A model generated the notes under the pieces. That model ran no database searches and had not been told where the DNA came from. It saw only the letters and a list, made by a program, of their open reading frames with translations. Of a stretch of DNA of 42,738 nucleotides, positions 3,102 to 41,030 are shown piece after piece. Positions within the stretch are counted from its first letter, which is position 1; every line of letters begins with the position of its first letter. A program made the position numbers and the translations under genes. This DNA is from Labilibaculum euxinicum. GTDB taxonomy: Bacteria; Bacteroidota; Bacteroidia; Bacteroidales; Marinifilaceae. Location: assembly GCF_009795715.1 (NCBI RefSeq), contig NZ_WTCR01000022.1, positions 1-42,738 on the forward strand. The letters are read 5' to 3'.

Positions 3102-3842
3102 TTATTCTTTTTGTATTGTTTGAGTCTGTATCTGTTCCTTTTTGCGCTTTACTGCAGCCAAATGATCTGCTACTGATTTGTTATTGTCCTCTATAATTGT
3201 AGTCAGCAATCCGGCAAATTCTTTGTACTGGCTTGGTTTTGCCTTTGCCATTGATTGAAGATAAACAGAAAGTTCATTGTTGATTAAATCTCTCAGATCT
3301 TTGGCAAGAGCAGTTGCCGATTTTGTTTTTTTCCGATCAACCGTATTTTCAATAAATTCCAGGTTAGACAATTCAAAATCGGACTGAGAGCTTTGCAGGT
3401 TCGCAAGTAATTTGTCTAAATCGGGTATCGAAGCTCTTTCTTCGGCTAATTCGGGAGCCGTTAAATCGACTAACATAGCGTTAATGTTCGCACTTTCGTT
3501 GATATAGGTGTACTCAGTAATCTCTATTCCAAACCGATCCAATATCTTTTTTATCCGCAAAGCTTTTTTTTGATTTTCATCTGGTCTTCGGTTGCATCTG
3601 GCCATTACTTCATAAAACACGGCACGTACATCTGCGTCGCGTATTGCATCTTTCTCCTTCCTGTCATTGTGCACACCTCCCCGGTTAATCGAGTCAATCA
3701 ACTCCTTGGTTATAAGCAAAAGTTTTTTAAAAATATCCGTGTAATAGTGATCCTCTTTTATTGAATATTTTTGAAATAAAGAGATAAGCTTGTTACCAAT
3801 TTCGGCACAATGTTTTGTAGAGGAGTTAGAATTTATTTTCAT
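3102..3842 (-). CDS. Conserved hypothetical protein, possibly DUF6261
   Basis: 246 residues, no signal peptide and no membrane segment, strongly helical with a Lys/Gln-rich tail (KRKKEQIQTQTIQKE). The length, the early helical pattern and the MLVDLTAPELAEERASIPDLDKL-type segment recall the Bacteroidota DUF6261 group, but this is from memory. Function unknown. It is preceded by a 572-base gap and so probably has its own promoter. Confidence 0.7.
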   Translation of the reverse strand: MKINSNSSTKHCAEIGNKLISLFQKYSIKEDHYYTDIFKKLLLITKELIDSINRGGVHNDRKEKDAIRDADVRAVFYEVMARCNRRPDENQKKALRIKKILDRFGIEITEYTYINESANINAMLVDLTAPELAEERASIPDLDKLLANLQSSQSDFELSNLEFIENTVDRKKTKSATALAKDLRDLINNELSVYLQSMAKAKPSQYKEFAGLLTTIIEDNNKSVADHLAAVKRKKEQIQTQTIQKE

Positions 3843-25055: not shown

Positions 25056-25130
25056 TCCAGAGGGTGCAAGTCCCTTATGCACTGGGGTGGCTCCCGGAAG
25101 CATTAGCTATCGGAAGTTTTTAACTCTGAC
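25056..25130 (+). mobile_element. 5' fragment of a group II intron (domain I)
   Basis: The first 34 bases (25056-25089, TCCAGAGGGTGCAAGTCCC and on) are identical to 40271-40304 in the second intron. GAGGGTGCAAGTCCC is a typical group II domain I phrase. After that the two copies drift apart (GCTCCCGGAAGC here, ACTCTGAGAAGC there) and this one is lost after about 25130. The very 5' end (GUGYG) is not recognisable. Confidence 0.75.
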
Positions 25131-25260: not shown

Positions 25261-26460
25261 ATGAAGGAACCCATTGTTTGCGATTACCTGATCATTGGTG
25301 CCGGAATCGTTGGTTTAAGTCTGGCTTACGAGCTAACAAACCGCTTTCCCGAAAAACACATTGTCCTTATCGAGAAGGAGGACCGGGTGGCCTGTCATGC
25401 AAGTGGACGCAACAGCGGGGTGTTGCATGCCGGGTTCTACTACTCTTCCGATTCCCTGAAAGCCCGCCTGTGTGTGGAGGGCAATCGACTGATGAAGGAA
25501 TTTTGCAGTGAGCATGAGATTGCGGTGAAACGCTGCGGAAAGGTTGTGGTTGCGGCAAATGAGGCTGAACTGGAAGGTTTGCACGAGTTGGAGCGGCGCG
25601 GAAAAAGAAATGGTGTGGAGGTCAGCTTGATCGGTACCGATGAACTTGCACGCATCGAGCCCAATGCAAAAACGCACAAACAAGCGCTCTACTCGCCCAC
25701 CACCGCGAGCGTTGATCCGGCTTTGGTGTGCGAAAAGCTGAGCGAGGCGCTAAAGAAGAAAGGGGTGCGTATTCATTTTGCTGTGCGGTACCTGAGGCGA
25801 AAAGGCGGTTTGATCCTTACCAATCGTTCGGCCTATCAGGCGAAACGACTCATCAACGCAGCGGGTTTGTATGCCGATAAAATTGCCCGCGATTTTGGCT
25901 TTTCAAAACACCGGGTGATCCTCCCCTTTAAGGGAATTTATCTGCAATACAACGGAAACGATTTGCCCTGCCAAACTCACATCTATCCGGTACCAAATCT
26001 ACTGAATCCCTTTTTGGGCGTACACTACACCCTTACCGTACACAACCGGGTGAATCTGGGTCCAACTTCCATTCCTGCCTTTTGGAGGGAAAACTACAGC
26101 GGTTTCGAAGGTTTCAAATGGGGAGAATTCCTGCAAATACTTTACTACGAAGCCAAATTGTTCCTGTTCAATTCGTTCAATTTCAGAAAACTGGCCATCC
26201 ACGAAATCAGAAAATACAACCGAAAGCATTTCGTTGGTCTGGCCAAAGATCTCACGCACAACTGCAAGGCAAATGCTTTCAACGAATGGCTGGCTCCAGG
26301 CATCAGGGCTCAACTGCTGAACACCGAAACCCTGAAACTGGAGATGGATTTTCTGCTCGAAGGCGATGAACATTCACTGCACATCCTGAATGCGGTTTCG
26401 CCCGCTTTCACCTGCAGCTTTGCCTTTGCCCGTTACATCATCAGCGAAAAACTGGCGTAA
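25261..26460 (+). CDS. lhgO: L-2-hydroxyglutarate oxidase (FAD-dependent)
   Basis: 399 residues, full family length. It oxidises L-2-hydroxyglutarate to 2-oxoglutarate with FAD, passing electrons to oxygen or quinones. DAO fold: LIIGAGIVGLSLAYEL (dinucleotide motif, 11-26), then ASGRNSGVLHAGFYY (FAD/substrate region), RLCVEGNRLM, RLINAAGLYADKIA, ILPFKGIYLQY, FLGVHYTLTV and the C-terminal NAVSPAFTCSFAFA. Base composition and codon use are visibly more GC-rich than the surrounding genes, a sign of transfer. It sits between the 5' fragment (25056) and the 3' fragment (27336) of a broken group II intron. Confidence 0.93.
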   Translation: MKEPIVCDYLIIGAGIVGLSLAYELTNRFPEKHIVLIEKEDRVACHASGRNSGVLHAGFYYSSDSLKARLCVEGNRLMKEFCSEHEIAVKRCGKVVVAANEAELEGLHELERRGKRNGVEVSLIGTDELARIEPNAKTHKQALYSPTTASVDPALVCEKLSEALKKKGVRIHFAVRYLRRKGGLILTNRSAYQAKRLINAAGLYADKIARDFGFSKHRVILPFKGIYLQYNGNDLPCQTHIYPVPNLLNPFLGVHYTLTVHNRVNLGPTSIPAFWRENYSGFEGFKWGEFLQILYYEAKLFLFNSFNFRKLAIHEIRKYNRKHFVGLAKDLTHNCKANAFNEWLAPGIRAQLLNTETLKLEMDFLLEGDEHSLHILNAVSPAFTCSFAFARYIISEKLA

Positions 26461-26764: not shown

Positions 26765-26781
26765 TCAAAATTCTGACCAAG

Positions 26782-26904: not shown

Positions 26905-27336
26905 AAAATCAAAAGTGAGACTTACCGGTGTTCTGCGCGATTTAAAATTTCACAATAAAAGTCAGCATACAATTCAGGATTTGGCAATATTGCTCAATCC
27001 TAAAATACGTGGCTGGTTAAATTATTATGGAAGAATTCATCGACGGTGCATGAAACCCGTGTTTTATTACCTACATCATCGTCTGATAAAGTGGATATTG
27101 AACAAATACAAAGGCTTTAAGCGTAGCAAGGTGAAAGCTGTGAGATGGTTAAGGCGTATCTGTAATTGTTATCCCAATCTATTTTATCATTGGACATTAG
27201 GCTGTCAATTAACCTAAAATTGAATTGACTGCATAATAAGAGCCGTACGAATTGAGAGGTTTATTGCCTGTCCCGATTTTTTTCGGGATACGGTTCTGTG
27301 AGAAGTTAGGGGTGGAATTCCCCTAGCTTACTCGAC
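26905..27336 (+). mobile_element. 3' fragment of a group II intron with maturase end, domains V and VI
   Basis: It contains the C-terminal coding part of the maturase (26915-27219), then domain V starting GAGCCGTACGAATTGAGAG (27240-27258 region), and domain VI ending CTTACTCGAC at 27336, with the bulged A seven bases from the end. The end matches the second intron (41016). Domain V here carries an inserted palindrome. The reverse-transcriptase part and domains I-III are missing, so this copy cannot splice or move by itself. Confidence 0.85.
26915..27220 (+). pseudogene. Group II intron maturase, C-terminal remnant
   Basis: About 100 codons that read as the maturase-specific (GIIM/domain X) region: VLRDLKFHNKSQHTIQDLA, NPKIRGWLNYYGRIH, then YLHHRLIKWILNKYKGFKR and RWLRRICNCYPNLFYHW. 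The whole reverse-transcriptase domain (about 300 residues) is absent; an in-frame stop lies just upstream at 26903. Its last 24 codons match the stub in the second intron with only a few changes. Confidence 0.88.
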
Positions 27337-27557
27337 TACCAAAAGTATTTTATATAATTATTTTTAAATAAACCCTAATTGCTTCATTACGGTTATTCTA
27401 TCGAAAACCTGGGTGTGTCAATTAATCAGGTCGTCTTTAAAAATGATAAATTGTCATTCCTTATCGGCAAATAAGCATAAGCATCAATAAATCAACGTGT
27501 TAATATTTTTGGTTGCATTGTTTATATTCTAATAATTATTCACGAATTTGATATTCA

Positions 27558-40257: not shown

Positions 40258-41016
40258 ATGTATTTTTTTTTCCAGAGGGTGCAAGTCCCTTATGCACTGG
40301 GGTGACTCTGAGAAGCTCTAGTAAGTAGCAAGCTGGTTTACCGTGAAGTATGCAGTAAAGGAAGCGAGACTGCAAAATCCGGTACTGACGAACAGTACCG
40401 AACTTGTGAGATTGTGAATGCCATTTAAGATAGCAGGAATGAACCAACCTGATATGAGGCTATAAGTTTGGATAAGACAGCACATCATGTCGACGTCCCA
40501 GTTCTTTTTTTTAAGAGAATAAACGAAATAGTAGATCAGGCAGGCATTGGAGGAAGGTGCCGAGCGAAGGGAGATCATGAACACTATATTAAAATTATTA
40601 CGTGAATAAAATGCTCTTACCAGAGGAGGTCTCATCAACCACGTGTTGGTTATGGTGAGAATTGGAGCGAAGCGGAAATCGCGAATTCGCATGGAATTAT
40701 TTTATGAGCAACTCAGCCGAAGCCATAGTAGCTGCAAGACAATGAGCCACAAATAGAAATTGTGGAGGGCTCACAGAGCAGTGAAGGTTGAACTCATTGT
40801 TCAGTAAAAAGCAGTGGTTCCAGTGAGATGGTTAAGGCGTATCTGTAATTGTTATCCCAATCTATTTTATCATTGGAAATTAGGCTATCAGTTAACCTAA
40901 AATTGAATTGACTGCATAATAAGAGCCGTATGAATTGAGAGATTCACGTACGGTTCTGTGAGAAGTTAGGGGTGAATTGAAAATCGACGAAGTCAAATTC
41001 CCCTAGCTTACTCGAC
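40258..41016 (+). mobile_element. Group II intron with deleted maturase
   Basis: Domain I begins near 40271 (CCAGAGGGTGCAAGTCCC), with the usual domain I landmarks after it (GTAAGTAGCAAGCTGG, AAATCCGGTACTGACGAACAGTACCG, GGTGCCGAGCGAAGG). A 25-codon stub of the maturase end follows (40823-40900), then a normal 34-base domain V (40923-40956) starting GAGCCGTATG with a GAGA tetraloop, and domain VI ending CTTACTCGAC at 41016. The exact 5' end is not visible as GUGYG. It lacks a maturase, so any splicing would need help from another copy. Confidence 0.85.
40823..40900 (+). pseudogene. Maturase C-terminal stub (25 codons)
   Basis: Reads VRWLRRICNCYPNLFYHWKL and ends with a stop at 40898. It matches the same end in the copy at 26915-27220 with a few changes. 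The rest of the open frame is gone; what precedes it is intron structural RNA. Confidence 0.8.
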
Positions 41017-41030
41017 TAGGTGCTGGCATT

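Follow-up and report, generated by a model that had tools for sequence, protein, structure and literature searches.

A palindrome of an apparently dispersed Bacteroidota family in place of one G in domain V of a 5′-truncated group II intron

The stretch of DNA analysed here (the window; 42,738 nt, positions 1 to 42,738 of contig NZ_WTCR01000022.1 of Labilibaculum euxinicum, assembly GCF_009795715.1) carries a remnant of a group II intron near 27 kb (the 27k copy) and a second copy near 41 kb (the 41k copy). The features to which we refer are as follows.

25057–25110, + strand: separate fragment resembling the intron 5′ part, AAAGTCCAGAGGGTGCAAGTCCCTTATGCACTGGGGTGGCTC, about 2.2 kb upstream of the 27k copy (by sequence).
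25261–26457, running with the intron: oxidoreductase gene between the 5′ fragment and the 27k copy (Pfam DAO).
26915–27217, + strand: C-terminal remnant of the intron-encoded protein, 100 aa, with the maturase domain and without the reverse transcriptase part (Pfam GIIM, E 2e-12).
27240–27296, + strand: interrupted domain V (DV), GAGCCGTACG-AATT-GAGA-GGTT-TAT-insert-TACGGTTC, not detected by RF00029.
27265–27288, + strand: insert P1, 24 nt, T + GCCTG + TCCCGA-T6-TCGGGA.
27298–27338, + strand: domain VI and intron 3′ end, without insert P3; putative end point from alignment of the other copies.
40280–41019 (boundaries approximate), + strand: second intron copy, without a reverse transcriptase (RT) gene (RF02001 at 40337–40565, RF00029 at 40921–41016).
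40923–40956, + strand: uninterrupted DV, 34 nt, GAGA loop, the uninserted reference state (covariance match and fold).
40977–40996, + strand: insert P3, 20 nt, TTGAAAATCGACGAAGTCAA, in domain VI of the second copy (by sequence and alignment).

Covariance scores place the 41k copy among group II introns (RF00029 61.7 bits, RF02001 43.5 bits), and its DV has the normal 34-base form with a GAGA loop, just as a first-pass annotation of the window had described it. Membership of the 27k copy is indicated by its GIIM remnant, its DV scoring below the RF00029 threshold. The 5′ fragment AAAGTCCAGAGGGTGCAAGTCCCTTATGCACTGGGGTGGCTC also opens the 41k copy and an intron at another locus (L087, at about 685).

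P1 lies directly 3′ of the AC bulge of DV and occupies the place of a single G in uninserted copies (GATTCAC[G]TACGG). Its hairpin part, at 27271–27288, is TCCCGA-TTTTTT-TCGGGA, with 6-bp arms and a loop of six T. The first-pass annotation had recognised this palindrome, and the string it gave for searching was correct; its loop of five T was one short for arms of this length. It had also taken the 3′ side of the distal stem to be replaced by about 30 bases. In fact AATT-GAGA-GGTT is retained at 27250–27261 despite P1, so the distal stem-loop sequence is present, the sequences of both basal strands, GAGCCGTA and TACGGTTC, are intact, and 24 nt stand where one G is expected. The hairpin does not have the layout of an intrinsic terminator, as the T-run forms its loop and TACGG comes after it.

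Domain V is the active site of the ribozyme and the counterpart of spliceosomal U6. Its metal-binding parts are the AGC triad and the AY bulge, as given in an excerpt of PMC4424553, and P1 therefore adjoins the active site. Folded in silico, a plain DV gives the expected structure; in the predicted minimum-energy structure of the DV with P1, the basal helix persists with the new hairpin stacked on it, and the GAGA stem is gone. On this predicted fold, P1 likely abolishes splicing, and the loss of catalysis that the first-pass annotation expected is plausible. Natural inserts beside the AY bulge offer ready-made tests of what the active site tolerates.

P1 is not peculiar to the 27k copy. The 5.06-Mb genome contains TCCCGATTTTTTTCGGGA five times, and all five lie in DVs of this one intron family. 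Eight copies in this genome carry a DV, five with P1 and three without, and RF00029 detects exactly the three uninserted ones; a ninth family match (C33) retains only the 3′ 45 bases. Across six Labilibaculum genomes, 25 copies have both DV strands, and P1 sits at the same base in 17 of them and is absent from 8. Two further copies have the palindrome and, of this DV, the 3′ side alone. One of the two, locus L072 (G003:C24, around 3238–3310), is a hybrid, in which the left half of a type-C DV and a type-B domain VI, the type of the present family, are joined at the palindrome, and one more copy (L084, G007:C1 around 4015250), an ortholog of the intron fragment on contig C32 of the present genome, ends inside the palindrome. 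Past this break, a CRISPR-like array with repeat TTTCAATTCCAGTATGGTGCGATTGAGAG directly adjoins.

Introns of type C, for which an intact 438-aa RT with RVT_1 and GIIM domains is found at L087, also have decayed copies that carry palindromes in DV. The type-C GAGA loop is filled on contig C24 of the present genome and empty on C8, C17 and C21. We also observed decayed type-C introns (L089, L132, L133, L134, L144, L145), located at several sites with differing 3′ flanks, in which the DV 5′ strand is replaced by TCCCGATTCCTCGGGA or TCCCGATCACTCGGGA and the 3′ strand bears a CTTCGCAAGCTCAGCATAAACC-like insert.

The first-pass annotation had suggested that the hairpin may be a small mobile palindrome and had proposed searching for it together with the preceding GCCTG. 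Within the window alone a palindrome of this kind is unsurprising, TCCCGA-N6-TCGGGA with up to two mismatches being expected 0.67 times and found at least once in 48 of 100 shuffles. Genome-wide, the exact TCCCGA-N6-TCGGGA pattern has 21 places versus none for the reversed-pattern control. With the leader included, CCTGTCCCG-N3-14-CGGGA is found 17 times in the own genome and at 111 places in nine genomes of the genus (control 0 in each), 57 of the 111 lying in genome G005, chiefly in one larger repeat. The pattern GCCTGTCCCG-N3-14-CGGGA has 123 places in 37 of 148 sampled Bacteroidota genomes versus 11 for the reversed control; the distribution is patchy, the pattern being absent from the other 111. 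Scanning genome contigs for GCCTGTCCCGATTTTTN{1,4}CGGGA gave at least 118 stretches, and among the matches listed 78 of 80 titles are Bacteroidota by name (exceptions L189 and L200). The suggestion is thus supported: the hairpin is dispersed, it occurs in many contexts across Bacteroidota, and other sites have uninserted counterparts. Judged by its sequence, P1 belongs to what appears to be a tiny, non-coding, dispersed palindrome family in Bacteroidota, N-GCCTG-TCCCG(A)-loop-(T)CGGGA.

Other repeats accompany the family. A dispersed intergenic repeat of about 120 nt, common to Labilibaculum and Algoriphagus (L026, L135, L137, L138, L140–L143, L150, L151), has, at a roughly constant position, either the GCCTG palindrome or TCCCGAAAGCTTTCGGGA. 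Neither the larger Labilibaculum repeat (six loci, E 0.05) nor L026, L141–L143 and L151 of the 120-nt repeat gave an Rfam match as a structured RNA. A second repeat, GGCTAAAGCC-GAC-G-GCAAAGGATA, is itself invaded by the palindrome (L161, L165, L175, L181, L183, L197, L203) and resembles repeats beside a gene for a Y1 transposase in L126.

Across all collected loci, uninserted counterparts were sought by requiring the 13 bases on either flank of the insert to match, with up to two substitutions allowed in each flank and 0–8 bases between the flanks. The 155 distinct filled sites fall into 58 context clusters, of which 15 have an uninserted counterpart; some contexts are repeats related to one another (CATTGCGA type), so the independent events number at most 15. 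Among the contexts are the bulge of this intron's DV, loops of DVs in other introns, one site in domain IV, repeats of the CATTGCGAGG and CCTGAGCG types, and the larger Labilibaculum/Algoriphagus repeat. In 14 of the 15 clusters the gap is exactly one G, the exception being empty (L172, 0 bases, 4 substitutions). All 10 clusters with close counterparts (up to two substitutions in 26 bases) show the G, six of them in exact matches, while the other five of the 15 have weak counterparts (3–4 substitutions). Minority gaps of C or none, seen in three clusters, come from worse matches. By comparison, 155 displaced 24-nt decoy blocks gave seven counterparts with gaps of 0, 0, 2, 3, 5, 7 and 8 bases, none of them a G. 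In the 14 clusters one G is lost and none duplicated, which differs from the terminal inverted repeats with target-site duplication of a MITE.

The first base of the insert is A at 92, T at 18, and G and C at 6 each of 122 sites, and therefore both replacement of the G and insertion after a G that later changed fit the data. There is a weak site-base preference: in 24 strictly independent contexts, C precedes the insert in 11 and A stands two bases before it in 11. Dispersed bacterial palindromes are known mostly by copy number; clean before-and-after pairs combined with a fixed one-base rule provide a handle on how such units are placed. Rickettsia palindromic elements and the GC clusters of yeast mitochondria are likewise very small palindromes that look mobile and insert into other sequences, and they differ from the GCCTG palindrome in sequence, host and size. 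We know of no description of a one-G rule for either.

Domain V recurs among the filled sites. By eye, 11 of the 125 sites of the genome-contig sample, among the matches listed, lie in a DV, several of them in other genera. Nine are in or near the loop, for example in Algoriphagus (L194, L221), Salegentibacter (L152), Draconibacterium (L210) and Flavobacterium (L155), and two (L154, L191) are on the 3′ strand, as in the window. Because DVs make up a very small fraction of a genome, this looks like strong enrichment; the figure is a raw count from a sample biased by survival in non-coding DNA. A phylum-wide search with one such DV yielded further loop inserts with variant hairpins (L279, L281, L303, L307). 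Five loci, these four and L280, were classed as interrupted by eye; by a strict motif, L280 alone counted as interrupted in DV, and the two other positives of this motif, L300 and L308, are not DVs. An open reading frame (ORF) with an RT motif accompanies 5 of 23 loci of uninterrupted relatives, several of which have short upstream DNA, and none of the five interrupted loci, numbers too small for an association.

These observations permit a wider proposition that we advance tentatively and regard as somewhat doubtful, namely that hairpin elements of about 24 nt throughout the phylum replace a single G with no target duplication through an undescribed activity on single strands, and that they repeatedly enter group II DVs, at the G of the GNRA loop or of the bulge, inactivating retroelements and marking points of recombination. 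If the preference for DV is true, such mini-palindromes would act as a natural brake on retroelements.

For the locus itself, we consider it probable that P1 is a dispersed palindrome in place of one G in the DV of a 5′-truncated group II intron, one that was moved in trans, abolished splicing and was then spread by recombination. In this scheme an activity supplied in trans, working on exposed or single-stranded DNA, would place the hairpin next to a G; DV would be hit because of its AC-G sites; P1 would displace the catalytic bulge and the distal stem, with loss of splicing; and P1 would later pass between decayed copies by recombination or gene conversion and not by intron retrohoming.

An enzyme for such movement can be proposed by analogy with the REP/BIME sequences mobilised by TnpA-REP (RAYT) transposases of the Y1 class, and the palindrome might then be a REP element moved by a Y1 protein, perhaps of Bacteroidetes subclass 2.6, an explanation that we think unlikely. 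The resemblance lies in size and dispersal (REPs are 20–40 nt palindromes; the 17 copies in the own genome fit this), in a short tag 5′ of the hairpin, in the lack of target duplication and in other repeats nearby. This genome has six Y1 genes, and the part of PMC6006769 on Bacteroidetes describes subclass 2.6 as having atypical structures that lack GT[AG]G and are found elsewhere in the genome. The tag here, however, is GCCTG, not GTAG or GTGG (nor CGTC), one G is replaced, and the palindrome is unlinked to a Y1 gene and lies inside other repeats and intron DVs. REPs are also species-specific according to the same excerpts of PMC6006769, whereas here the same core sequence is found in many genera. 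Copies of a REP flank their tnpA-REP gene; a tblastn search with five Y1 proteins of this genome found a relative at only 1 of 118 palindrome loci (L183) among the matches listed. Repeats flanking three of the six own Y1 genes differ from the palindrome, and the tyrosine motifs differ from the YIH[QN]NP of subclass 2.6 (L129 and L130 gave no motif). A TCCCGA/TCGGGA palindrome with GCCTG does lie elsewhere in locus L126, about 0.85 kb from the Y1 gene, and no such motif occurs in L129–L131. We have rejected a Y1/REP transposase as the mover, the association being absent in the genomes examined.

The nearest literature consists of REP reviews and surveys (PMC3733652, PMC6006769 and PMC12306157, each available to us in excerpt). 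Among open-licence papers, a scope in which absence is no proof, we found no account of the GCCTGTCCCGA family or of palindromes in DV; matches to the sequence letters included none relevant by title among the matches listed.

The palindrome may also have needed no enzyme of its own. If replication or repair went wrong, a 3′ end that had stalled at a site able to form a hairpin would switch to a distant palindrome, copy it and return. We hold this to be improbable, while noting that inserts lie in palindrome-rich repeats, that loop sequences vary, and that several unrelated small hairpins (P1, P2, P3 and TCCCGATTCCTCGGGA) enter the same introns. Against it, the constant GCCTG leader and the exact loss of one G are too regular for microhomology, and complementary flanks are not enriched. 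Targeting of hairpin tips as a general rule was rejected on the same data: over 39 dereplicated contexts flank pairing scores −2.74 versus −2.53 for permuted pairs (sd 0.36), with 63 of 200 permutations as good, and a helix is found in 9 of the 39 versus 6.0 expected (sd 2.0, maximum 12 in 500 permutations), which points in the same direction and leaves tip targeting unsupported.

How P1 came to be in so many copies bears on a further alternative, a single ancient insertion into DV that was spread by intron copying or retrohoming, with the P1-bearing DV still able to splice while the hairpin bulges out harmlessly. P1 copies do stand at many sites with differing 3′ flanks and an identical 3′ end, 5′ truncation is the expected leftover of incomplete reverse transcription, and neither strand of the basal helix nor the sequence of the GAGA loop has been lost. 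We nevertheless find this explanation quite unlikely. None of the 17 P1 copies has an RT of its own, and an ORF with an RT motif was found upstream of none of the 15 examined with at least 2.2 kb of upstream DNA and at none of the 12 P1 loci of other genomes (two with less than 1.4 kb upstream). Covariance search with RF00029 misses the P1-bearing DVs of this genome, and other genera carry the palindrome at the loop G of different DVs. The eight uninserted copies are decayed and without an own RT as well, the one RT upstream of them (C23) belonging to a separate intron, and P1 therefore need not be what killed the intron.

Nor do the inserts fit a simple tree. A further insert, P2 (20 nt, containing GAAGTTCGGCGAAGCC), lies in the DV 5′ strand, and in the six genomes seven of the eight possible combinations of P1, P2 and P3 are seen, with each pair of inserts in all four states, which implies recombination between copies or more than one insertion at the same base. 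The orthologous pair G000_C32/G007_C1a differs in P2: this genome has it and G007 lacks it, between flanks 98.6% identical over 2489 nt, so inserts have been gained or lost in place; the intron part shows two substitutions, a divergence no greater than that of the flanks, and gene conversion is thus not shown by this pair alone. A second candidate pair, for presence and absence of P1 (G002_C21/G007_C1b), was set aside, as the unit and the upstream gene are common and both flanks differ.

A chance palindrome arising by decay of a dead DV is refuted here, for while the host intron is decayed and about one loose palindrome per window is expected, an identical 23–24 nt that recurs at one base in 17 of the 25 copies, and elsewhere in the phylum in other contexts, with 111 and 123 places versus 0 and 11 in the reversed controls, is not what decay produces.

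The introns resemble those of integron cassette arrays in being truncated and, on contig C8, facing against array genes, with adjoining attC-like AACG/GTTAG motifs, a 34-nt DV and a maturase remnant, and differ in their palindromic inserts in DV and domain VI. To our knowledge, no palindromic inserts have been reported in these domains of integron-array introns. The AACG/GTTAG motifs stand at the intron ends; on contig C8 the genes lie on the opposite strand, and in the window the gene at 25261–26457 runs with the intron. Group IIC-attC introns lie beside attC sites and against array genes, as described in part of PMC7923331, and from the motifs and the orientation on C8 we tentatively file the present introns with them. 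No integron integrase scored above the TIGR02249 cut-off (best 118 of 265 bits; all 14 control genomes also gave signals below the cut-off), and any array here is therefore without a recognised intI. Many of the truncated intron units begin with a CAGTCTGTCTAAAAAC stretch directly after an AACGG attC-like motif (L022, L068, L085, L087 and the window near 26780), as if the stretch were a fixed unit end.
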